From positions 1-64,000 of the forward strand of contig JAUIKF010000029.1 of the NCBI GenBank assembly GCA_030430575.1: a stretch of 64,000 bases of DNA. The letters run 5' to 3'. The translations under genes and the position numbers were made by a program. This stretch comes from Bacteroidia bacterium (GTDB lineage: Bacteria; Bacteroidota; Bacteroidia; J057). Numbering within the stretch: position 1 is the first letter of the stretch; every line of letters begins with the position of its first letter. A model generated the notes under the pieces. That model was not told the origin of the DNA and did not search any database. It saw only the letters and a program-made list of their open reading frames with translations. Below are positions 1,262 through 50,840 of this stretch, piece by piece.

Positions 1262-3520
1262 CTACCCTTCTTGCTGACGAATCAAATTCAGCGCACTGCC
1301 TGCCTTCAGCCAGTCAATCTGAGCAGCGTTAAAGGTATGGTTGCACATGATCGCATCAGACGATCCGTCTTCATGATGGAAAACCACTTCTACCTGGGAA
1401 CCAGGAGCGATAGAAGAAGCCAAAATGTCGATGGTATCATTTTCCTGAATCTTGTCATAATCTGCAGGATTGGCGAATGTGAGGGCCAGAACACCCTGCT
1501 TTTTGAGATTGGTCTCATGGATACGCGCAAATGATTTTACGATCACGGCACGCACACCTCGGTGACGGGGTTCCATGGCAGCGTGCTCACGAGAAGAGCC
1601 TTCGCCGTAGTTTTCGTCCCCTACGATAATGCTTTGAATACCTGCTTCTGCATACGCCTTTGCGACTTTAGGATTCTCAGTGTACTCTCCAGTCAATTTA
1701 TTTTTGCTATTGGCCTTTTTGGTAAAGGCGTTGATAGCGCCTAGCATGAGGTTGCCACAGATATTTTCCAAGTGCCCACGATAACGTAACCATGGTCCTG
1801 CCATAGAGATGTGGTCTGTCGTACATTTGCCAAAAGCCTTGATAAACAAAGATAAACCTTTGATGTCCGCACCATCCCATGGCTGAAAAGGGGTCAAAAG
1901 CTGGAGTCGCTGGGAGTCCTCAGCCACTTCAATGGTGATCCCACTGCCATCTTCGACTGGGGCAATGAAGCCGGCATCTTCGACTTCAAACCCTTTTTCA
2001 GGCAACTCATCGCCTACAGGTGGGTCAAGCATGACCTGCTGGCCATTTTCGTTGGTGAGTGTATCTGTAAGGGGATTAAAGGTGAGGTCCCCTGCGATGG
2101 CCATCGCTGTTACCACTTCTGGCGACGCCACAAAAGAGTGCGTATTGGGGTTGCCATCATTACGTTTGGCAAAGTTCCTATTGAAGGAAGTGATGATAGA
2201 GTTTTTGCGGTTAGGGTCATCAGTATGACGTGCCCATTGGCCGATGCACGGGCCACATGCGTTGGCAAGCACTACACCGCCTAGGTCTTCAAAGGCTTTT
2301 AAGAAGCCATCTCTTTCTACCGTAAAGCGAACGAGTTCAGAACCTGGTGTTACCGTAAATTCTGCTTTTACTTTCAAATTCTTATTGACTGCCTGGCGTG
2401 CTACAGAAGCGGCTCGGTCGAGGTCTTCATAGGACGAATTGGTACATGAACCAATCAACCCAACTTCCAGCTCCTGAGGATAGCCATTGTCTTTAACGGC
2501 ATCAGCAAACTTTGAAAGCGGCCAAGCTGCGTCTGGCGTGTAAGGGCCATTGATGTGAGGTTCAAGGGTGCTCAGATCAATTTCAATGACTTGGTCAAAA
2601 TACTCGCCAGGATTCGCATATGCTTCAGCATCACCCGTAAGGTGTTCTGCGACTCCGTCTGCAAGGTCAGCCACTTCAGCGCGGCCTGTTGCACGTAGGT
2701 AACGGCTCATCGAGTCGTCATATCCAAAAGTAGAAGTGGTAGCGCCTATTTCTGCGCCCATATTGCAAATAGTGCCTTTCCCTGTACAAGACATGGACTT
2801 AGCGCCTTCGCCAAAATACTCTACAATCGCATCAGTTCCGCCTTTTACCGTCAATATGCCCGCCACTTTGAGGATGACATCTTTAGGAGAAGCCCAGCCG
2901 TTAAGTTTACCTTTGAGGTGAACACCGATAAGCTTCGGCATCTTGAGTTCCCAAGGCATGCCTGCCATTACATCCACTGCGTCAGCTCCACCTACGCCGA
3001 TAGCTACCATGCCGAGGCCACCGGCATTGGGGGTGTGGGAGTCAGTTCCGATCATCATCGCACCTGGAAAAGCATAGTTTTCCAAAACTACTTGGTGGAT
3101 GATACCTGCACCAGGTTTCCAGAATCCGATTCCATATTTATTGGAAACAGCGGCCAGGAAGTCATATACTTCTTTATTGGTATCTATAGCAGTAGCTAAG
3201 TCTTTGTCAGCATTTATTTTTGCCTGGATAAGGTGATCACAATGTACGGTTGAAGGAACTGCTACCTTTTTCTTACCCGCCATCATAAATTGAAGCAAGG
3301 CCATTTGAGCAGTCGCGTCTTGCATTGCCACACGGTCTGGCGCGAAGTCAACGTAGTCTCTTCCTCGGTTATAAGGCTTAAGCTCAGTTTCTGGATGTAA
3401 ATGTGAGTAAAGGATTTTTTCCGCCAAGGTCATAGGGCGACCAAGCATCTCGCGGGCCGCCGCTACTTTGCCAGGAAGTGCAGCGTACATTTGTTGGATC
3501 ATCTCCAGGTCAAATACCAT
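1262..3520 (-). CDS. acn: Aconitate hydratase
   Basis: Interconverts citrate and isocitrate in the TCA cycle in the cytoplasm. The 752 residues fit the mitochondrial-type aconitase common in Bacteroidota. The three [4Fe-4S] ligands are visible: Cys359 in GSCTNSS, and Cys422 and Cys425 in ACGPCIGQW. Substrate-binding stretches include [10 protein letters not shown] near 159-168. The C-terminal swivel domain carries [11 protein letters not shown] and [10 protein letters not shown]-like sequence ([10 protein letters not shown]). The start is the first ATG, about 33 bases downstream of the expected transcription start of a good Bacteroidota promoter. Monocistronic, with its own terminator. Confidence 0.97.
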
Positions 3521-3559
3521 AGAATTCTGGGATTAAATAGTTGATTTTATTTGAAGCCG

Positions 3560-3590
3560 CAAAAATACGCTTAATTGAAGACTGATTCAA
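3560..3590 (-). promoter_or_regulatory. Bacteroidota-type promoter for aconitase
   Basis: On the minus strand TTG (3588-3590) is separated by exactly 20 bases from TATTTTTG (3560-3567), matching the TTTG/TAnnTTTG -33/-7 consensus. The aconitase ATG at 3520 lies about 40 bases downstream of the -7 box. Confidence 0.6.
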
Positions 3591-3752
3591 GCAGAAGTTT
3601 TTTTCACAAAATCCATTCATTAGCGCTAACTTCGTCCTCAGGATCTCTATTTTTTTGAATTTGGGTAGCATATAATTAATTTGCCCCATCAACGTTAGTA
3701 AAAGGTCCCGACGCGAGAATTACACTTAACACAACAGATAAACAGTACTTTG

Positions 3753-24513: not shown

Positions 24514-25224
24514 CTATCGACGACCTAGCTGAATATTCGTAGGCCAGAAGGACATTTCATAAAACTGATCCAGTTTGGGGTGACGACGGAAAAAATCCTT
24601 GTGAGAAGCTCGCCATCCGAGCATTTCAGGGAGGCGGCTATTGGTGTCGTTGTTTTTGTATAAAATGCGCGCAGCGAGGGGGTTAGAAGCCATCCAGCAT
24701 AGATTTTTCTGAAGGCTTACCAGCGCTTCTGGATGCTGTGAAGTCCATAGTTTGTCCTCATATAGTGATTCTGCTAACTCGCTGTGGCTATACATCCAAC
24801 TCAGGTTGGCAAACAGGCGCACAACCAATTGGGGGTGTTGTTTTAAATAGCTGAGTTCTAAATCTGCCAGTTGAGGATAGCTCTCTTCTAGGGCACGTAA
24901 GTCCTTGCGATCCATATTTTGACGGTAAATAAATTCCGTCCGTACACGATGATATAATTCATTGAAACTGAGAAGCCCATCACGATTTTTATCACTTAAT
25001 TGAAAGTGTCTTTCTACTAGGTAGTAGGTGAATTCTCTCGGAAACCGCAGCATCTCATCACGATCTAGTAAGGCATCGTCATTTTGGTCTGCAATGATAA
25101 AACGCTCCTCCAGATACCATTCGGTAATTTTCTGGCTCATCGGATCGATTTGGGCAGTGGCTAGCTTGGCAAAGCAGCAAAGGGAAATTGTAACTAGGAA
25201 GAATTTGGTAAGGGGAAGTCTCAT
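24514..25224 (-). CDS. Exported EF-hand domain protein
   Basis: 236 residues with a signal peptide (MRLPLTKFFLVTISLCCFAKLATAQ). Two canonical EF-hand loops lie at about residues 48-60 (DQNDDALLDRDEM) and 78-90 (DKNRDGLLSFNEL), both with acidic residues at positions 1, 3, 5 and 12. The remaining ~140 residues are helical with repeated HP-x-(L/A) motifs (QHPQLVVRLFANL, SQHPEALVSLQKNL, SNPLAARILYKN, RHPKLDQFYEM). A calcium-binding periplasmic protein of unknown partner. Confidence 0.8.
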   Translation of the reverse strand: MRLPLTKFFLVTISLCCFAKLATAQIDPMSQKITEWYLEERFIIADQNDDALLDRDEMLRFPREFTYYLVERHFQLSDKNRDGLLSFNELYHRVRTEFIYRQNMDRKDLRALEESYPQLADLELSYLKQHPQLVVRLFANLSWMYSHSELAESLYEDKLWTSQHPEALVSLQKNLCWMASNPLAARILYKNNDTNSRLPEMLGWRASHKDFFRRHPKLDQFYEMSFWPTNIQLGRR

Positions 25225-25654
25225 GTTAATATATGTGTTTGGAAAGGGTCTGGTAACCTCTTTTCAAAAAGAATGCCCACTTATACCATAATTGGGTAAC
25301 AGTGGGGAGTCGGGGTTAAATAAAGGTGTGTGGAGGGAACTAGTTTTCAAGAAAACAACCATAAAACGTTCAAATACCTGAATTATTGGCATATTCGAGG
25401 CGCAAATTTAGGTTTTTCGATGGTTTTTCCTAACATCCTACCTGGAAAGATGTGTACTTTTTTAGCTACGATAGGCCATGTGCCTTTTGTATACATTATT
25501 ATACACTTGTAATACAAAAAGAAACGGTCCCTATTTGGGACCGTTCTAATTCTCAAGACAGCTAATTTTGAGATTTACACTTAACTAACAGATAGTCTAA
25601 TTACGAGAAGCCTATCGATTAGTTTCAATATTCCGCCAAGGATAAAGTCATTAT
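25225..25654. other. 430-base intergenic region
   Basis: Lies between two minus-strand genes. It holds the terminator of the 25655 gene at 25523-25545 and otherwise A+T-rich DNA that should contain the EF-hand promoter. A 60-codon frame on the plus strand has no start context or recognisable sequence. No RNA gene was seen. Confidence 0.5.
25523..25545 (-). terminator. Terminator of the sigma/anti-sigma operon
   Basis: AACGGTCCC and GGGACCGTT form a 9-bp perfect stem around TATTT. On the minus strand it is followed by TTTCTTTTTG. It is about 110 bases past the stop at 25655. Confidence 0.75.
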
Positions 25655-27328
25655 TTATTTTACCCCAAAAGTATACATCAAGGACATCGCTCCACCAGCT
25701 GCATGCAGTTTCTGGTTTTTTGCGCCTATTCGCTGAAGCCCTAATTGTAGATAAGGCTCTATCTGCAAATGAAGCTTTTCTCCCAACTTCCACTCTATTC
25801 CAGGTGCAATTTGCAAGGTACCCACATAGGTCTTGGCACTTGCATGCTGATATTCTGGTTCTATTCTTTCGTACAAATGCGTTCCCAAACGAGGATCCCT
25901 CGGATCTGTGACGGGTATGGCTAATCTCAGTGTCTCACTGACATTCGAAGCTGACATGGGATTAAATTCGAAATGATCTTCTTCTAAGGTGATAAAAGGG
26001 GTCAAGCCTGCTTGAAAGTAGAATGACAATGGGCTATTTGACTGAAAGTGATATTTGGCAAGAATGGGTAGTTCTAACAATCTAAAATTCGCCTTGAAGC
26101 GAGCAATATTGAAAGGCGTTGTACCTACACTTCCTTGATCTTTGTTGGGCACAAAATCCATCCGGTCATATTTCTTATTAGCATATAACAAGCCCGTAAC
26201 TAAACTCCATTGTCCCGTGATCGGCAATTCAACCCTAACTCCGGAAGCAAAGCCCATTTCTCCCAATTCATTCAGTTCCGAAACGCTAGAGAAACCAGCA
26301 CCATAGAGTCCCAGTCGGAAGTTCCCAACCCCTTCAGACTTACCTGATGATGTTTCAGGCAACAAATGCCTTCCAGCCAGTCTGACTTGATTGGCGATTC
26401 TTTGTTCAGCAATGCTATTGGATTTGGACACACCACGAGGATCAATGAGGTGACAGATTCTTTGAGGCTGCTTATCTCTTGGATAAGTACCATAAATGAC
26501 TTGCGTTTCTATCCCTGTACTTTCCCCTCGTGTACTTCCCAATTCCGCTAAATCAACTACCTCTGCCTCTACTACATGAGAAGGTGCAGTTGACCTTAGG
26601 GTTTCCCCACCGCGTAGTTTCTGGGTATTTCCCGAACTAGGAACTGCAAGAGATGAAGTAATAGAAACTTCATCGTTTGCCCCTTCTGGGGAAACAACTT
26701 GAGGAGCTATGTCCTTATTCTGCTTGTCATCTACAGAAGACATTTCATCAGCTTGAGCAGCCTCTGGCGTTTCGGTTAGGGGTTGGCCTTTTGTTTCTGT
26801 GGAAATAATTGCCTCCAAATTGCCAGCAGCAAATTGTTCACCAACGGGGTTCTTTTTCCAACTAAAAAGGACTACAAGTAAGATGGCAAAGAACCAGAGG
26901 AGATTTCTATTGGCAGTAGGGGTATGAGGAAATGCCTGGTCGAGCTGCCCTGCCATTACGCCCCAATCATCAGGTACATAGGGGACTGCGTGATTTCCTA
27001 GTTTATCAGCCATCTCCGCATCAAATGACGCATCTAGCGCTTCTTCTAACATCATCCAGTCACCAGCAGCAGGCACCATAGCTTCTAGCTCGGGTGCCGT
27101 TAGTTTTTCGCTTATCGCTCGGTCAAAGGGATTCATTAGCTCTAGTTCCATTGCGTCCCAATCTGCTGGGACATAGGGCACCTCGGCGTCTTGCAATTTG
27201 GCGCGTACCGCCTCATCAAAAGGCGCGTCCAATTGCTCAGCAAAAGCGTCCCAGTCTGAAGCCACAAAAGGCAGCTCCAGATTCAGCAGCTTAGTACGTA
27301 CAATTTCATCAAAGTAATTATCCTGCAT
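25655..27328 (-). CDS. Anti-sigma-like protein with inner-membrane helix and outer-membrane beta-barrel
   Basis: 557 residues from the ATG at 27328, which overlaps the sigma gene end by 11 bases (the longer frame uses a TTG). The N-terminal 130 residues carry four tandem copies of a ~31-residue unit beginning at residues 6, 37, 68 and 102 with the pattern F-D-x(3)-R/x-x-K-L ... V-x-x-D-W-x-x-M/L. A single membrane helix follows (LLWFFAILLVVLFSW, ~143-157). A low-complexity periplasmic linker of ~170 residues leads to a C-terminal barrel (LGLYGAGFSSVSELN, SLVTGLLYANKKYDR, LPILAKYHFQSNSPLSFYFQAGLTPFITL). This layout matches the dual-membrane-spanning anti-sigma factors described in Bacteroides. 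It likely sequesters the adjacent sigma factor; that is inference from order and overlap. Confidence 0.75.
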   Translation of the reverse strand: MQDNYFDEIVRTKLLNLELPFVASDWDAFAEQLDAPFDEAVRAKLQDAEVPYVPADWDAMELELMNPFDRAISEKLTAPELEAMVPAAGDWMMLEEALDASFDAEMADKLGNHAVPYVPDDWGVMAGQLDQAFPHTPTANRNLLWFFAILLVVLFSWKKNPVGEQFAAGNLEAIISTETKGQPLTETPEAAQADEMSSVDDKQNKDIAPQVVSPEGANDEVSITSSLAVPSSGNTQKLRGGETLRSTAPSHVVEAEVVDLAELGSTRGESTGIETQVIYGTYPRDKQPQRICHLIDPRGVSKSNSIAEQRIANQVRLAGRHLLPETSSGKSEGVGNFRLGLYGAGFSSVSELNELGEMGFASGVRVELPITGQWSLVTGLLYANKKYDRMDFVPNKDQGSVGTTPFNIARFKANFRLLELPILAKYHFQSNSPLSFYFQAGLTPFITLEEDHFEFNPMSASNVSETLRLAIPVTDPRDPRLGTHLYERIEPEYQHASAKTYVGTLQIAPGIEWKLGEKLHLQIEPYLQLGLQRIGAKNQKLHAAGGAMSLMYTFGVK

Positions 27329-27905
27329 ATTTTTCTTCTTCAACTTTCGGAACCACCTTCTTCTTTCTTCTAGAAGTTCCGATCATTTTTTGGAGCTTCG
27401 AACGGGCTTTCGCCAAATTTGATTTCGAAGTCCCTTCACTAATTCCGAGTTCTTTTCCCACTTCTTTATGGGAATAGCCCTCCACTACATATAAGTTGAA
27501 TACCGCCCGGTAAGCAGGAGACAACTTTTGAACCAATTTCATGATTTCACTGGCGCTCATTTCAGCCACGACATCATGCCCATCCGCTTCATGGACGGCA
27601 TGATTGATCTCAACTAGGCTCGGCTTCTTGGCATTTTTCCGATAATGATCAATGGAGGTATTGATCATAATCCGGCGAATCCAAGCACCGAGATTCGTGC
27701 CTTGCTTGAAGCGCTCCAAATTTTTAAAGACCTTCATGAATCCCTCATGGAGTACATCCCGTGCTTCTTCTCTATCAGAAGCATAACGCATACATACCGC
27801 CATCATGCTGCCATAGTATCTCTCATATAGCAGTTTCTGACAGTGTCTATCCTTTAGGATACACCCTTGTACAACTTCATCTTCGTTGTAATTGGTACTC
27901 TTCAT
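27318..27905 (-). CDS. RNA polymerase ECF-type sigma factor
   Basis: 195 residues. Region 2 (LLYERYYGSMMAVCMRYASDREEARDVLHEGFMKVFKNLERF, with the DVLHEGF helix) and region 4 (LSPAYRAVFNLYVVEGYSHKEVGKELGISEGTSKSNLAKARSKLQ) are complete, with no C-terminal SnoaL-like domain. It ends in a basic tail (TSRRKKKVVPKVEEEKYAG). It is the first gene of a two-gene operon with the overlapping anti-sigma-like gene. Autoregulation is typical of such pairs but no matching operator is evident. Confidence 0.93.
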   Translation of the reverse strand: MKSTNYNEDEVVQGCILKDRHCQKLLYERYYGSMMAVCMRYASDREEARDVLHEGFMKVFKNLERFKQGTNLGAWIRRIMINTSIDHYRKNAKKPSLVEINHAVHEADGHDVVAEMSASEIMKLVQKLSPAYRAVFNLYVVEGYSHKEVGKELGISEGTSKSNLAKARSKLQKMIGTSRRKKKVVPKVEEEKYAG

Positions 27906-28146
27906 GTTATGTCGTTGACCTATGAACGCCTGGGATAAATAGACGGTTGCTTGTGTATAATTAACAATTTCCTATCACATTTACTAATCAGCATTTAGGG
28001 CCAATAGGCTACATTTTGGGCTGATTTACCTCCAAAAAAAGACAAAAAAAGGTTTATTCTTTCTTCCACCACTTAACCTCCAGTTGTGGCCTGTTATTTG
28101 AATGGAAATTACAGACGTTGAATTTCATCAAATTTAGGATTAACAA

Positions 28147-28635
28147 ATGTCAAAGTTCGCATATTCCCTTGTTATCGGGTCAAGTTACCTCCTCCTGGGG
28201 GTGCTTCTCACACTAGCCGCGTTGTCGTGGGGGTGTGACCGAAAAGCAACACAGGGAGATGACGAATCTTCGTCCACTGGAAAGATCGTTCTTGCTCATG
28301 CTCAGACAGGCAATGTTTATCATATTGGGGGCGAACAGCTCAATTATGAGAACTTCCTTCCCATAGATGCTGAAGGCCTGATTTCTATCCGCGCAGGAAG
28401 AGACCAGAATCAACTCTATATCCAATATAACCTCCCCCAACCCAACCAGATCACTCTGCGTCTCTACGACGGCAAAGGCATGCTCCGCTACATCGAGAAA
28501 CTCGAGAACATCGGACTAGGCATGGAACGTGAATTGGAGCTCTCCAATTTTCGCGATGGCGATTACATCCTCCAGCTCAGCATGGAAGGACGGATCATGA
28601 GCCAAAAGATCGCCTTACACTCCCGTGGACAATAG
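28147..28635 (+). CDS. Small exported protein consisting mainly of a type IX-type C-terminal sorting domain
   Basis: 162 residues. The N-terminal hydrophobic segment (SSYLLLGVLLTLAALSWGC) ends in a Cys and may be a lipoprotein signal, though the lipobox (SWGC) is poor. After ~35 low-complexity residues the rest (YIQYNLPQPNQITLRLYDGKG, MERELELSNFRDGDYILQLSMEG, SQKIAL) fits a type A sorting domain fold. There is no cargo domain between them. It could be a sorting-domain decoy, a degraded exoprotein or a misread small lipoprotein. Upstream DNA gives no clear promoter. Confidence 0.6.
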   Translation: MSKFAYSLVIGSSYLLLGVLLTLAALSWGCDRKATQGDDESSSTGKIVLAHAQTGNVYHIGGEQLNYENFLPIDAEGLISIRAGRDQNQLYIQYNLPQPNQITLRLYDGKGMLRYIEKLENIGLGMERELELSNFRDGDYILQLSMEGRIMSQKIALHSRGQ

Positions 28636-31099: not shown

Positions 31100-31534
31100 C
31101 TATTGGCTACCGCTCTCATCTCGCATTTTCAAATAATTCAACGGAGTCATGACAGCTATTTCTGAGTTTCTATAATCCTTGACATTTCGGGTAATAATAG
31201 CCTCTATTCCAGAGATTGTTAATGCCGAGGAATATTGAACAGAATCTTCATAATCCTTAAAGTTATTTTTCAGGGCTTGAATAATTTCTTTTTTTGTAGT
31301 CCCGATTATTTCTGTCATATCTGCCAATTCTTCCACTACCTCAAGGGTCTTTTTATGCCCTAAATATTTTCTGACAATATAGTAGATATTATTGATGCTA
31401 ACGGCTGACAAGTATAATGCTACTTCGCCTTGCTCATTTAAGTCAAATAATTCACTCGCGGGATTAGCATGAGGTTCTCTATCAGTGAAAAAGTCAATAA
31501 CTACATCGGAATCAATAAATAATTTAGATGCCAT
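31100..31534 (-). CDS. PIN domain ribonuclease toxin (VapC-like)
   Basis: 144 residues. PIN-type acidic residues: Asp in LFIDSDVVIDFFTDREPH (N-terminus), Glu/Asp in KDYEDSVQYSSAL, and Asp in ITRNVKDYRNS. Typical of PIN toxins that cleave RNA. Its start overlaps the antitoxin stop by 11 bases, giving coupled translation. A+T-rich relative to neighbours. Confidence 0.85.
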   Translation of the reverse strand: MASKLFIDSDVVIDFFTDREPHANPASELFDLNEQGEVALYLSAVSINNIYYIVRKYLGHKKTLEVVEELADMTEIIGTTKKEIIQALKNNFKDYEDSVQYSSALTISGIEAIITRNVKDYRNSEIAVMTPLNYLKMRDESGSQ

Positions 31535-31778
31535 ATTTCTTTGTTAATTCTTCCGTTAAGACTTGCTTATGGTTGATATCTCCACTGGTTTTAATGATTC
31601 CTCTTAATCTTTGTATTCTTGGAGATAATTGTTCTGGTTTGATTTGCCTTCTATTTACAGTGACTAGTTTGAAATAATTTTCAACCATTTCAGATAAGCT
31701 TTGCCCTTTTTCTTTAGCATAGGCTTTGGCAATCTCAATTACCTCCTTTTCAATCGTCAAAGTTAGTTTTGTGTTCAT
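31524..31778 (-). CDS. DUF6364 family antitoxin
   Basis: 84 residues, upstream partner of the PIN toxin. The N-terminus (KLTLTIEKEVIEIAKAYAKEKGQSLSEMVENYF) is a ribbon-helix-helix-like DNA-binding segment characteristic of DUF6364. The C-terminal part (RQIKPEQLSPRIQRLRGII) probably wraps the toxin. Antitoxins of this kind normally repress their own promoter. Confidence 0.82.
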   Translation of the reverse strand: MNTKLTLTIEKEVIEIAKAYAKEKGQSLSEMVENYFKLVTVNRRQIKPEQLSPRIQRLRGIIKTSGDINHKQVLTEELTKKYGI

Positions 31779-36883: not shown

Positions 36884-37564
36884 TCAAATTCTTTTTGCAA
36901 TTTCTATCTTGGAATCAATACTATCATATCCTTCAGTAAATGCTTTAGCCTCTGGGCTAATCCAAGTCAACAAGTCGTAAATGTCCGATTTGAATCCTTC
37001 CGCATCACTCAAGTCAATGATATTCGAGTTAAAACAAATGGGTTCATTATGATAAATCCTATTCCTAAATTCCCTTACCACTTGCATTTTTGAAGAAATG
37101 ATTCTTCTGTTTACATGGGGTAATTTATTCGGAAAACAATGGATTATCGATCCTCCCACTAATCTGTAATGGTGAGGATCAAAGAGGCTTGTCCAAAAAC
37201 CAAAGGATTGTTCAGCAATTACCTTTCCTGCAGTAATAGTGCTTCTCCTTCTTCTTAACTTTCTTTCTGCTTTTTGAACTTGTTCTTTTAAATAAAATCT
37301 AGATGAACGTAAGGATGGATCACTCATGAATCCATTCTTTTCACGAACAATCCAATTCGGATTTGTGAAATGGGCACTCAGATTGTAATGTATTGAATTC
37401 CTGAGAATTACTTCAAACAAATTTAGGACAGGATATATCGCTTGTGAAAGTCTTAGATTTGCCTTATAAAGCTTTTGAGCCTTGGTTTTAGAGTTTTGAC
37501 AGGCAACCAAGTACCTGTCAAGTCGCGGTTGTGAAACAAGAAATTCTACATCAGTATACTTCAC
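36884..37564 (-). CDS. Abi family protein (abortive infection, HEPN-type)
   Basis: 226 residues resembling Abi_2/AbiD-type proteins: start with FLVSQPRLDRYLVACQNSK, LYKANLRLSQAIYPVLNLFEVILRNSI, FGFWTSLFDPHHYRLVGG and the HEPN catalytic motif VVREFRNRIYHNEPI (R-x4-H). HEPN proteins of this group are predicted ribonucleases that stop growth on phage infection. It is alone, A+T-rich and next to small accessory genes, so it may be a horizontally acquired defence gene. Confidence 0.8.
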   Translation of the reverse strand: MKYTDVEFLVSQPRLDRYLVACQNSKTKAQKLYKANLRLSQAIYPVLNLFEVILRNSIHYNLSAHFTNPNWIVREKNGFMSDPSLRSSRFYLKEQVQKAERKLRRRRSTITAGKVIAEQSFGFWTSLFDPHHYRLVGGSIIHCFPNKLPHVNRRIISSKMQVVREFRNRIYHNEPICFNSNIIDLSDAEGFKSDIYDLLTWISPEAKAFTEGYDSIDSKIEIAKRI

Positions 37565-45732: not shown

Positions 45733-48099
45733 TTATTCATCCCTCAACGCCTCCACGGGATTGGTACGAGCGGCCTTCCAAGACTGGAAGCTGACCGTCA
45801 ACCAGGCGATTACTAGAGTGCCTATACCTGGCAAGAGGAAATACAACGGGTGAAACGTCACCCGATAAGCAAAGCCATCCAGCCAATCATTGAGCATCAG
45901 GTAGGCAACTGGAATCGCCAATAGGAAGGCGAGAAAGACCAGCCAGGTAATGCTTTTATTTAACATCAAAATCATCTCCCATGAGGAAGCACCCAGTACC
46001 TTGCGGATGCTAATTTCCTTGCGGCGCTTCTCTGCAGCATAAGCTGCGAGGCCCAACATCCCCATACAGGCAATGATGATGGCCAGCATGGAAAAGGCAA
46101 AGATAATGCTGCTCAGGCGCTCTTCAGCTTCGTATTGGCGGGCAAAATTGTCGTCGACAAAGAAGTAGTCAAATTCGCGGTTGGGCGCGAGGGTCTTCCA
46201 GGAATCTTGCAGAGACGCAATTAATCGCGTCTCTAAATTGGTGCATTTGATGGAGACAAAATTGTGGACGCCATTGTCTGGAGCGCGGTACATGTGGAGG
46301 ATCGGCGCCACTTCGTTTTCCAGCGATTGGAAATTATAATCATCTACCAAGCCTACGACTTGGTAGGTTCTTTCCCCGCGCTGAATGGTATGTCCAGCAA
46401 TGCTTTCCCAACCAAAGGCTTCCATCGCAGCCCGATTGATAATCATGCTTGTCTGTCTTTCTTCTTCTGATCCTGAGATGAAATTCCGCCCTTCGAGCAC
46501 TTTGATGCCATAGGTTTCGAAGAAATGTTCATCCATGTAGGAAGTCCGTACGCGCATGGGCTGCTCCGCATCCCAGCCATCTGGCGTGGCAAAGGTAAAC
46601 CATCCATCCCAGCTGCCTGGGATGTGGGAAGAAGAAGCGACGCTGCTCACATTGGCGAGAGATTTCGCCTCTTCTTTGAAGCGCTCGATCGAGCGGATGG
46701 CGGCTTCCCGATCTGGGAAGTCCCTTGCTTCCACAGGCACAACCACCAGGTTGTTTTGATCAAAATTCAACTCTGCTGACTGCATGAATTCCACTTGACG
46801 CCAGATGACAAGGGTTCCTACAATCAAGGCCATTGACAATCCAAACTGGAGCGTCACCAATACGTGTCGAGAAAATACGCTTCCTCTAGAGGCCCGAATC
46901 TTGGTTTTAAAGGTGTCTATGGGGCGGTAGTTGGAAAAAAGGAATGCAGGATATAGCCCCGCCAATACGCCTATGGAAAGGCCCATCCCTATCCAGAACA
47001 GCAACAATTGCTGATCGGCAAAGAGATTGAGGTCAAATTGAATGTCAAATGCTTCTACAAATAGCGGGCGGCTCACTTCCACCAAAATCACACTCAACAA
47101 TAGCGCAATCGCACCGATCAGCACTGATTCGCCCAGAAACTGGCCAATGATCTGACCACGCCTTGCCCCCAAGACTTTGCGCATGCCTACTTCGCGCGCA
47201 CGGTCAAGCGTACGTGCCGTAGAGAGATTCACAAAATTGATGATAGCAATGAGCAAAATGCCTATGGCGATCATGAGCAGCATGATAGCGTACTGACGAC
47301 TATCAGTGAGGGCATTGTAGCGTTCCAATAAAGGCCGTAGGCCGAGGTTGGTGCGCTGCGCTATTTCTTCATTCCATGTTTTTTGAATGAATGCTGGGAA
47401 CTGTGCTGTTACCGCTGATGGATCGCTCCCTGGTTGCAGCATGATATACGTGTCGAGAAAGGCACTGCCCCAATTGTTGATATTGTCTTCATACCCACTG
47501 AGTGTACTCATCAGGACCATGAAATCAGGTCGTATGGTAGCGTTGAGGGGAATTTTGTCTAATACCCCACTTACGGTAAATTCTTGTTCAAAATCGAGGT
47601 GGATAATTTTCCCCAATGGATCTTTGCCCGCAAAATACTTCTCAGCCATTTCCTCAGACAGAATGACACTGTGCTTATTCAAGAATGCTTTCTCGGCATT
47701 TCCCTTTTTGAAAGAAAAACTAAATAACTCAAAGAACTCAGGGTCAATGTGACTCACGACTTCCTGAAATTGCTCCCCATCTTTCTCAATCCACGATTGC
47801 CGGTCAAACACGCGACTGCCCGCTACTACAGAATGGAAATCTTCTTCAAGTGCTTCTTTCAAGGGAATCCAGGTATCAGAGCCTATCTGCGTGCCTGTAG
47901 GCGTAATACGCTCTTTATATACTTGGTAGATATCATCTGCCTTTTCATGGAAATGATCATAGGTCAATTCTTGAAGCGCATACGTGCTGATCAGCATCGC
48001 AGCGGCCAGACTGATGCCCAATCCCACAATATTCAAAGCTGCATAGAAGCGATGCCTACTGAGGGAGCGGAAAGCGACTTTTAGATAGTTTTTGAGCAT
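45733..48099 (-). CDS. MacB/FtsX-type ABC transporter permease
   Basis: 788 residues from the ATG at 48099 (MLKNYLKVAFRSLSRHRFYAALNIVGLGIS); the longer frame starts in a GTCTGA repeat. Layout: first helix, a large periplasmic MacB_PCD domain, three helices with the FtsX signature (VGMRKVLGARRGQIIGQFLGES), a second periplasmic domain, and a last FtsX block (KEISIRKVLGASSWEMILM). No ATPase gene is adjacent. Such permeases use ATP hydrolysis by a separate partner to move envelope substrates mechanically. Residues encoded at 46211-46234 come from an intergenic-type palindrome. Second of two tandem permease genes. Confidence 0.9.
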   Translation of the reverse strand: MLKNYLKVAFRSLSRHRFYAALNIVGLGISLAAAMLISTYALQELTYDHFHEKADDIYQVYKERITPTGTQIGSDTWIPLKEALEEDFHSVVAGSRVFDRQSWIEKDGEQFQEVVSHIDPEFFELFSFSFKKGNAEKAFLNKHSVILSEEMAEKYFAGKDPLGKIIHLDFEQEFTVSGVLDKIPLNATIRPDFMVLMSTLSGYEDNINNWGSAFLDTYIMLQPGSDPSAVTAQFPAFIQKTWNEEIAQRTNLGLRPLLERYNALTDSRQYAIMLLMIAIGILLIAIINFVNLSTARTLDRAREVGMRKVLGARRGQIIGQFLGESVLIGAIALLLSVILVEVSRPLFVEAFDIQFDLNLFADQQLLLFWIGMGLSIGVLAGLYPAFLFSNYRPIDTFKTKIRASRGSVFSRHVLVTLQFGLSMALIVGTLVIWRQVEFMQSAELNFDQNNLVVVPVEARDFPDREAAIRSIERFKEEAKSLANVSSVASSSHIPGSWDGWFTFATPDGWDAEQPMRVRTSYMDEHFFETYGIKVLEGRNFISGSEEERQTSMIINRAAMEAFGWESIAGHTIQRGERTYQVVGLVDDYNFQSLENEVAPILHMYRAPDNGVHNFVSIKCTNLETRLIASLQDSWKTLAPNREFDYFFVDDNFARQYEAEERLSSIIFAFSMLAIIIACMGMLGLAAYAAEKRRKEISIRKVLGASSWEMILMLNKSITWLVFLAFLLAIPVAYLMLNDWLDGFAYRVTFHPLYFLLPGIGTLVIAWLTVSFQSWKAARTNPVEALRDE
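46211..46234. repeat. Palindrome copy inside a permease coding sequence
   Basis: AGAGACGCAATT/AATCGCGTCTCT, 11 of 12 bases paired. On the minus strand it encodes LETRLIAS within the second periplasmic domain. It is related to the perfect intergenic palindrome at 44365-44396. The frame is kept. Confidence 0.7.
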
Positions 48100-48114
48100 A
48101 ACGGAAGAAAGTTT

Positions 48115-48236
48115 AAACGTCTGATTGTCTGAGCGTCTGAACGGAAAACTGTCTGAATGGCCGCAAGTCTGAGCGGGAAGATGGCTAAGCGCATTCAACG
48201 TTCAGACATTCAGACCTAAGACGATCAGACGTCTTT
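48115..48236. repeat. GTCTGA-word inverted repeat between tandem permease genes
   Basis: The left arm (AAACGTCTGATTGTCTGAGCG, TCTGAACGG; from 48115) and right arm (CGTTCAGACATTCAGACC, GACGATCAGACGTC; to 48236) are degenerate complements built from CGTCTGA-like words. It fills the space from the upstream permease stop at 48240 to the start region of the downstream one. Confidence 0.65.
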
Positions 48237-48239
48237 TAT

Positions 48240-50678
48240 TTATTCGTCTTTGAGCGCCTTTACAGGATTCGCCACGGCTGCTTTGATGGACTGAAAACTC
48301 ACGGTGAGCCAGGCGATCACGAGGGCGATCACACCAGAAAGAACATAGGGCAATGGCTGTTTCCAGGGCAAAATATCGATGCGATAGGCAAACGCTTCCA
48401 GCCAGTTGTTTCCCAGGACATAAATGATGGGAATCGCGACAACGACCGAGATGATCACCAATAGCGTGAAATGCTTGGACAGCAATACCACAATGTTGCC
48501 AACAGATGCGCCCAACACTTTGCGAATGCCAATTTCCTTGGTTCTGGCCTGAGTCATGAAGGCCGACAGGCCAAATAGACCGATACAGGCAATCAGGACT
48601 GCCAAGCCCGAAAATACCGTTGAGATGCGGCGTACGCGCATTTCGCTTACATAAAGCGCATCGAGCTTTTCGTCAAAAAAGCGGTAGTTGAATGGCTGTT
48701 CGGGATTAAAAGTGCGCCATTGATCGGCGATGAAATCGACGGCTTCTGATGTGTTTCCAGCCTTCAGGCGGATAGCGAGGAATGGCATATTGCCGTTTTG
48801 GCCTTCGTGGCTGAGCATGACGACGGGGCTGATTTTCTGGTGCAATGACTGAAAGTGATAGTCTTTGACGACGCCCACAATGGTGTAGCGCACCAGTTCA
48901 TTATTGGCGCCGCCATTTCCTTGGCTATATATCGGCTTGCCGATAGGGTCGTCGATGCCCAATTCGCGCACAGCCGTTTCATTCATCAGGATAGAAAGGC
49001 TATCGTTAAAGGCGCGGTCAAAGGGACGACCGTCCACAATTTCCATCCCCAAGGTCTCGATATAGTCTTCATCCATGACCATGGCACTGGTCGTGACAGG
49101 CTCCGTGCCTGGGCTCGTTTGTACAAAAAATCCGAAGTAATAATCTCCCGGTAATGCATTGGTCCCTGAAGCCTGAGTGATCTGCGGATTTTGAAGCAAT
49201 GCCTCTTTGAAGGCTTCAGTCTTCTCTTGAAGGGTGCCAAAGCGCTCTACAATGAGCGTCTGGTCCTTATTAAATCCAAGGTTCTTATTTTGCATAAACT
49301 CCATCTGCCGATAGATCACCAGGGTAGCAGCGATGAGGACGATAGAGATAAAAAATTGGAATACAACCAGTCCATTTCGGAGGAATGTACCTTGGCGACT
49401 TGATTTAAAATTGCCCTTTAACACCACTACGGGCCTGAAAGAAGACAAGACAAATGCAGGATACAGCCCCGCCAGCAACCCTACCACAATGGCAAAGCTC
49501 AACAACGCAGGAATCAGCCAGCCCGGTTGAGCGATATTTAGCTCAAGGCTTTTCTCTGCCAATTCATTAAAATAGGGTAACGCCAACCTCACCAACCCTA
49601 TACCTACAAACAAGCTGATCAGGCTGACGGTAACTGACTCCACCAAAAATTGTCCTACCAATTGCTTTCTGAGGGACCCAAGCACTTTTCGCACGCCTAC
49701 TTCACGTGCCCGCTCAGCAGACCGCGCCGTGGCGAGGTTCATGAAGTTAATACAGGCCAACAATAGGATAAAGAAGGCAATGCCGATAAACATGTACACA
49801 TAAGTGATATTGCCATTGGCGCGGGCTTCGCTTTCGAGTTGGGATTCGAGGTGAATACGCTTAAGCGGCTGAAGGAAATAGCGGTAGCCATTGCCCGCTG
49901 CGGTGTAGGACTTATAGTCCATATTGAGTTGTGCCTGAATCTGGCCAGCGGCATATTGCTCCACGAGCTTGGGGAATTTTGATTCCACATGATCTGGGTC
50001 AGCCGAGGGATCCAATAGCAGATAGGTCAGGGCAGAAAAAGAGATATAATTAGGGCGACGGAGGAAACCAAGGCTGCCAGAGGAGAGGAGCAGGTCAAAG
50101 GTGAAATGGCTGTTCTCAGGCACGTCTTCGGCGATGGCCGTTACGATCAGGTCGCCAAAGTCTGACTCCAACTGCTGGCCCATGGCCTTTTCCTTTCCAA
50201 AGAAGCGCTCCGCAGTAGAGGCTGTCAAGATGACGCTATTGGGCTTATTGAGGGCGGTATTGGGATCGCCTTCGACAAGGGGCAAGGTGAAAATGTCAAA
50301 AACATTGGAGTCCGCAAACATCACTTCCTTTTCCTCGTAGATGTCATCCTCTTTTTGGAATACGACCCCATTGCCAAAGGCTGTAAACAGGCGTGTCGCC
50401 TTTTCCACTTCGGGAAAGTCTTTGGCGACAACCTCGGAGAAGCCGCCTGGAATGATGGCGTAGAGCCGTGTATGTTCGGGATAAATGCGCTCTAGCGCCA
50501 TGCGGTAGATGCGGTCGCCCTGCGCATGCTGTGCATCATAAGAGAACTCATCTGCGACGTGCAGCAGGATCAAGGTACAACAGGCGATGCCAATGCCAAG
50601 CCCCATGATATTGATCAGAGAGTAGCCTTTGTGGCGCCAGAGGTTGCGAAAGCCGATTTTTAAGTAATTCTTAAGCAT
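48240..50678 (-). CDS. MacB/FtsX-type ABC transporter permease
   Basis: 812 residues from the ATG at 50678 (MLKNYLKIGFRNLWRHKGYSLINIMGLGIGIACC). Same two-block layout as its downstream neighbour: MacB_PCD domain (EFSYDAQHAQGDRIYRMALERIYP...), FtsX helices with VGVRKVLGSLRKQLVGQFLVES, second domain and KEIGIRKVLGASVGNIVVLLSKHF, ending FQSIKAAVANPVKALKDE. A paralogue of the genes at 45733, 56278 and 59056. A 530-base region with a Bacteroidota repeat and a long palindrome lies upstream. Confidence 0.9.
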   Translation of the reverse strand: MLKNYLKIGFRNLWRHKGYSLINIMGLGIGIACCTLILLHVADEFSYDAQHAQGDRIYRMALERIYPEHTRLYAIIPGGFSEVVAKDFPEVEKATRLFTAFGNGVVFQKEDDIYEEKEVMFADSNVFDIFTLPLVEGDPNTALNKPNSVILTASTAERFFGKEKAMGQQLESDFGDLIVTAIAEDVPENSHFTFDLLLSSGSLGFLRRPNYISFSALTYLLLDPSADPDHVESKFPKLVEQYAAGQIQAQLNMDYKSYTAAGNGYRYFLQPLKRIHLESQLESEARANGNITYVYMFIGIAFFILLLACINFMNLATARSAERAREVGVRKVLGSLRKQLVGQFLVESVTVSLISLFVGIGLVRLALPYFNELAEKSLELNIAQPGWLIPALLSFAIVVGLLAGLYPAFVLSSFRPVVVLKGNFKSSRQGTFLRNGLVVFQFFISIVLIAATLVIYRQMEFMQNKNLGFNKDQTLIVERFGTLQEKTEAFKEALLQNPQITQASGTNALPGDYYFGFFVQTSPGTEPVTTSAMVMDEDYIETLGMEIVDGRPFDRAFNDSLSILMNETAVRELGIDDPIGKPIYSQGNGGANNELVRYTIVGVVKDYHFQSLHQKISPVVMLSHEGQNGNMPFLAIRLKAGNTSEAVDFIADQWRTFNPEQPFNYRFFDEKLDALYVSEMRVRRISTVFSGLAVLIACIGLFGLSAFMTQARTKEIGIRKVLGASVGNIVVLLSKHFTLLVIISVVVAIPIIYVLGNNWLEAFAYRIDILPWKQPLPYVLSGVIALVIAWLTVSFQSIKAAVANPVKALKDE

Positions 50679-50840
50679 AAAAATAAATTGTTCCCAAAGC
50701 GTCACAATTTATTTTTATATGATGCTTTGTGGTTATCATGTAAAACTTTGTTGCTAGGGCTGTTTATTCATTTTTTGGGGGAAATTCGGTATCCTTCATA
50801 AGTTGTTGACACTTAGCTAGGGTCAATTTTTCCTACAGCA

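Follow-up and report, generated by a model that had tools for sequence, protein, structure and literature searches.

A putative one-chain anti-sigma factor of Bacteroidia with a tandem array of hairpin units that varies in copy number among its orthologs

Why should a putative anti-sigma factor begin with four copies of the same short unit? The question is raised by a gene in the 64,000-nucleotide stretch of Bacteroidia DNA analysed here (the window; contig JAUIKF010000029.1). A sequence-only reading had divided its product into four tandem N-terminal units, one inner-membrane helix, a linker and an outer-membrane barrel, all in one frame beside an ECF sigma factor gene, a division now borne out by profile searches, AlphaFold and Pfam (Table 1). 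With the membrane topology predicted from these parts, a single chain appears to span from the outer membrane to the cytoplasm. We think it probable that the two genes encode an autoregulated pair, an ECF sigma factor and an anti-sigma factor of the dual membrane-spanning (Dma) type, in which array, helix, tether and barrel are serially joined.

Table 1. Coordinates of the operon and of the domains of the anti-sigma protein in the window
Feature	Position	Strand	Details
Dma-like anti-sigma gene	25655..27328	-	557 aa, single frame, ATG start
ECF sigma factor gene	27318..27905	-	195 aa
Sigma end/anti-sigma start overlap	27318..27328	-	11 bp; most orthologs also overlap
ECF-type promoter GCAACC-N16-CGTT	27925..27950	-	19 bp before sigma ATG; 13/13 orthologs, spacer exactly 16
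Intrinsic terminator-like hairpin	25522..25546	-	10-bp stem and T run; ends two-gene operon
Unit 1	27227..27313	-	residues 6-34; first units best conserved among orthologs
Unit 2	27137..27220	-	residues 37-64
Unit 3	27032..27127	-	residues 68-99; weakest, 3-residue insertion
Unit 4	26939..27025	-	residues 102-130; adjoins membrane helix
Inner-membrane helix, single	26855..26914	-	residues 139-158; hydrophobic, AlphaFold helix
Disordered periplasmic tether	26321..26854	-	residues 159-336; AlphaFold pLDDT about 30
C-terminal eight-strand OmpA-like barrel	25667..26320	-	residues 337-554; Pfam, AlphaFold, Foldseek

The four-fold repeat, read as starting at residues 6, 37, 68 and 102, is real. A unit profile built solely from orthologs outside this genus matches residues 7-34, 38-64, 69-99 and 103-130 at 37.7, 34.0, 14.6 and 26.5 bits, respectively, while shuffling these residues 1000 times yields no score above 12.0 bits, so all four units exceed the shuffles and the third, the weakest, is still above chance. 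The units follow in tandem as had been described, with lengths of 31-34 residues rather than the uniform 31 or so proposed. Nearly all of them, internal ones included, keep the consensus D..I..KL ... DW ... L, which is also that of single-unit relatives, and first units taken from different orthologs are more alike than are other pairs of units, with scores averaging 30.1 against 20.8. A DNA-level repeat was looked for in this array and none was found, indicating that the array is old. AlphaFold, supplied with the ortholog alignment, builds helix pairs where the units sit, at modest confidence (pLDDT about 50-68). The unit matches no model in Pfam or NCBIfam, and the whole protein matches none of their known anti-sigma family models up to E 10; a search of solved structures gave nothing for the array and, for a single-unit profile, no more than designed proteins matched in part, which we judge to be chance. 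In units so short and weakly modelled a known anti-sigma fold is not recognisable, nor is there a convincing match to a solved structure.

The remainder of the chain is better defined. AlphaFold predicts the membrane helix at residues 139-158, disorder over residues 156-334 (pLDDT below 50) and a confident barrel at 337-554, in which most blocks reach pLDDT 90-95. The region read as an outer-membrane barrel does align with such barrels, as Pfam OMP_b-brl_2 matches residues 356-522 above cutoff (E 4e-10) and Foldseek returns OmpA as the best solved-structure matches (E 1e-8). The linker between helix and barrel is present as expected, at about 178 residues instead of the estimated 170. Among orthologs the tether measures 126-190 residues and the array side 118-297, the periplasm-spanning part thus being less variable in length than the array.

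The overlap of 11 bases with the ECF sigma gene is as had been noted; an in-frame TTG at 27343 is a possible alternative start for the anti-sigma protein, and orthologs retain the ATG within the overlap. Against NCBIfam the sigma factor scores above cutoff with the sigma70-ECF model and below cutoff with TIGR02985 (Sig70_bacteroi1). ECF promoters typically combine an AAC-type -35 with a CGT-type -10 element, and the pattern [GA]CAACN-N16-CGTT lies upstream of the sigma gene in 13/13 orthologs, 15-26 bp before the start codon, where about 0.02 sequences with the pattern would be expected by chance from mononucleotide shuffles; spacers of 13-20 other than 16 are absent from the 13. This conservation makes autoregulation of the pair very likely. 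In this genome the operon's own site is the sole match to GCAACC-N16-CGTT in its exact form, and a regulon search of eight genomes yielded looser sites at a frequency not above that of a reversed-pattern control and no further target.

Several neighbouring genes deserve mention. Divergent from the sigma gene and adjoining it, 28147-28635 (+) encodes a small exported-looking protein with a weak, below-cutoff match to Por_Secre_tail (T9SS sorting); the sister genome has a homolog of 39% identity in the corresponding position (L033:3894-4364). Downstream, past the terminator, lies a gene for an EF-hand-like protein (24514-25224, -), of which a similar one occupies the same place in L033 (512-1210). 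Further off, the two adjoining 821-aa ORFs at 45733-50705 (-) are 34% identical and, given the MacB_PCD and FtsX domains of the first, are read as a tandem pair of ABC-type permeases. A PIN-domain protein gene (PIN_3; 31100-31778, -) overlaps a DUF6364 gene, likely forming a toxin-antitoxin pair, and 36884-37564 (-), whose Abi_2 match falls just below cutoff, encodes a possible abortive-infection protein.

The anti-sigma gene is present in all 13 genomes examined of its taxonomic family, this one included, and nine genomes sampled from seven other families of the order gave no match at E<=1e-10. Relatives in genome contigs were found by searching with the sigma alignment, the whole-protein query giving none. 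Array and membrane helix share one open frame in the 12 other family genomes, and in 11 of these so does the barrel, the contig of the remaining one (G012) stopping short of it. That the frame is an assembly artefact or an accidental fusion of two genes, a doubt expressed in the sequence-only reading, is therefore rejected, the 11 full-length orthologs leaving it a negligible chance.

Copy number is a variable trait of this family, ranging from three to eight. There are four units here and 4, 5, 5, 8, 5, 3, 8, 5, 5, 5, 5 and 8 in L033 to L044, in that order, the counts for L034, L037, L040 and L042 being uncertain by about one owing to degenerate units; some of the internal units in L034 and L042 are degenerate, and both members of the genus of this genome have four. 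In the sigma tree the largest clade (support 88/91 for 8 rows) is poorly resolved in its inner branching and mixes counts of 3, 5, 5, 5, 5, 8, 8 and 8, which indicates that the unit number changed more than once. Compared unit by unit, the orthologs are weakly collinear overall (4357 vs 4082 on average in permutations, sd 73), the majority of individual pairs falling short of significance.

A search with a hidden Markov model of the repeat unit, which the sequence-only reading had proposed, found the four units here and the same unit widely across class Bacteroidia. Most matches in the class carry one unit only, with a membrane helix after it, near residue 48, and in many relatives a single unit of about 35 residues is all that precedes the helix. 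A profile derived exclusively from single-unit proteins picks up individual units of the present arrays, which supports common descent, and we propose that the array arose by tandem amplification of a single hairpin that would be the whole sigma-binding part in most relatives. The domains following the units are diverse and include OMP_b-brl_2 barrels, a PorP/SprF barrel preceded by up to five units (L083) and PKD/CHU_C domains preceded by two (L091). Of the unit-bearing loci retrieved through the anti-sigma protein itself, 32/32 have an ECF gene immediately upstream, with spacing from an 83-bp overlap to a 167-bp gap. In this genome the single-unit paralogs L109, L114 and L115 each adjoin an ECF gene, and the barrels of paralogs L109, L112 and L115 score above the Pfam cutoff.

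Arrays appear to have arisen elsewhere too, as before PorP/SprF-type barrels and in PKD proteins. In L055, of a different lineage, the units form a 105-bp DNA repeat with 82% matches, and L056 and L061, its closest sampled neighbours by sigma phylogeny, are single-unit loci (support 93/87), so the L055 array is probably separate in origin. The [GA]CAACN-N16-CGTT pattern also precedes all three of these loci. The L055 unit array (2407-2729), still a tandem repeat at DNA level, is a possible site of copy-number change between strains, and a second repeat of 7/42/99 bp lies between its membrane helix and barrel (3181-3605). In the loci L083-L088, forming one family (f18), up to five of the units are arrayed next to an ECF sigma gene; those of L083 precede a PorP/SprF barrel, so an outer-membrane protein of the type IX secretion kind may also act directly as an anti-sigma factor.

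From the constant linkage to ECF genes and the existence of single-unit relatives we infer that the unit binds sigma. When the sigma factor and unit 1 were folded in AlphaFold as one artificial chain, obtained by translating through the 11-bp overlap and taking GCAG there as a single four-letter word for A, the model stayed at pTM 0.47 with the unit at pLDDT 66-78. In the resting state the cytoplasmic array would hold the cognate sigma factor at the inner membrane. A trigger at the barrel or in the envelope, whether unfolding, mis-insertion, a ligand or cleavage of the tether, would weaken this hold, and the freed sigma would transcribe its own operon from GCAACC-N16-CGTT, the overlapping genes allowing sigma and inhibitor to be remade together. 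Since one hairpin seems to suffice in the single-unit relatives, the simplest role for extra hairpins is to supply further sigma sites, and each chain with its tandem array would most likely offer several places for sigma to bind, which need not be equal.

How those sites would be used can be read in more than one way. The array could be a multivalent reservoir in which each hairpin holds one sigma factor, so that one sensor stores and releases several and the count of three to eight sets threshold and steepness, and the hairpin, at about 30 residues, would then be a minimal anti-sigma domain, absent from catalogues and used across Bacteroidia with interchangeable sensors (OmpA-like, PorP/SprF, PKD); we advance this reading tentatively, the sequence-only reading having already suggested binding of several sigma molecules or graded control. 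A comparable degree of plausibility attaches to one main site, in which sigma is bound mostly by unit 1, alone or together with a neighbouring unit, and the rest are duplicated hairpins serving as a spacer that sets the distance to the membrane or stabilises the chain. The closer mutual resemblance of ortholog first units fits such an unequal role, as unit 1 could do most of the work, and the weak unit 3, the degenerate internal units of L034 and L042 and the drift of copy number next to well-conserved sigma factors point the same way; however, the D..I..KL ... DW ... L consensus persists in nearly all units, beyond the needs of a plain spacer.

Several hairpins might instead wrap a single sigma factor, contacting regions 2 and 4, and bind it 1:1 with greater affinity, in the manner of class I domains. 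Such domains have a dual binding interface with sigma (PMC7406223), and a lone two-helix unit is small for that purpose. Yet in many relatives one unit of about 35 residues is enough, and a family whose members carry 3, 4, 5 or 8 units suits no fixed geometry, making this wrapping rather unlikely. It is improbable that the array belongs to an envelope protein that does not bind sigma at all, its linkage to the ECF gene reflecting co-regulation only: sigma binding by the array is a prediction, and the unit lacks a counterpart among catalogued anti-sigma families, but the sensor is exchanged (OmpA-like, PorP/SprF, PKD) while unit and ECF gene always stay together. That copy number varies (3-8) hints at a means of tuning sigma switches of this kind that has so far gone unrecognised, and natural arrays of one to eight copies offer a ready-made series relating site number to the threshold and steepness of a sigma switch, with the conserved promoter as reporter.

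Comparison with known systems places the array in context. FecR-type anti-sigma factors and TonB-dependent receptors, two proteins touching in the periplasm, convey an outer-membrane signal to a cytoplasmic ECF sigma factor; the present protein would convey a signal over the same route, but one chain would do both jobs. Class I anti-sigma domains are likewise short, cytoplasmic and adjoin an ECF sigma gene, but none gives a Pfam or NCBIfam match here. They are reported to neighbour only 6% of Bacteroidetes ECFs (PMC7406223), and a 30-residue hairpin accompanying ECF genes with several sensor types could fill part of this gap. The single-unit Dma-like proteins of Bacteroidia (including L109, L112 and L115) have the same hairpin, membrane helix and adjacent ECF gene, often with an OMP_b-brl_2 barrel, but they carry one unit and have other sigma partners. 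A literature search of partial coverage found no paper joining an anti-sigma factor with a tandem repeat of the anti-sigma domain. The closest counterpart is the Dma of Bacteroides, described as starting with a sigma-binding domain, continuing through a membrane helix and a disordered tether and ending in a barrel, with its gene next to that of an ECF21 sigma (PMC13088901). Likened to Dma1 and Dma2 by layout and gene order alone, the present protein is Dma-like, as the sequence-only reading had proposed: in both, an N-terminal part, here putatively sigma-binding, is followed by a single membrane helix, a tether that is long and disordered and a barrel at the C-terminus, with an ECF gene alongside. 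The difference is the four tandem hairpin units, three to eight in the family, an array not mentioned for Dma in the passages of PMC13088901 consulted. The overall layout is thus already that of Dma, and the array is the new part.
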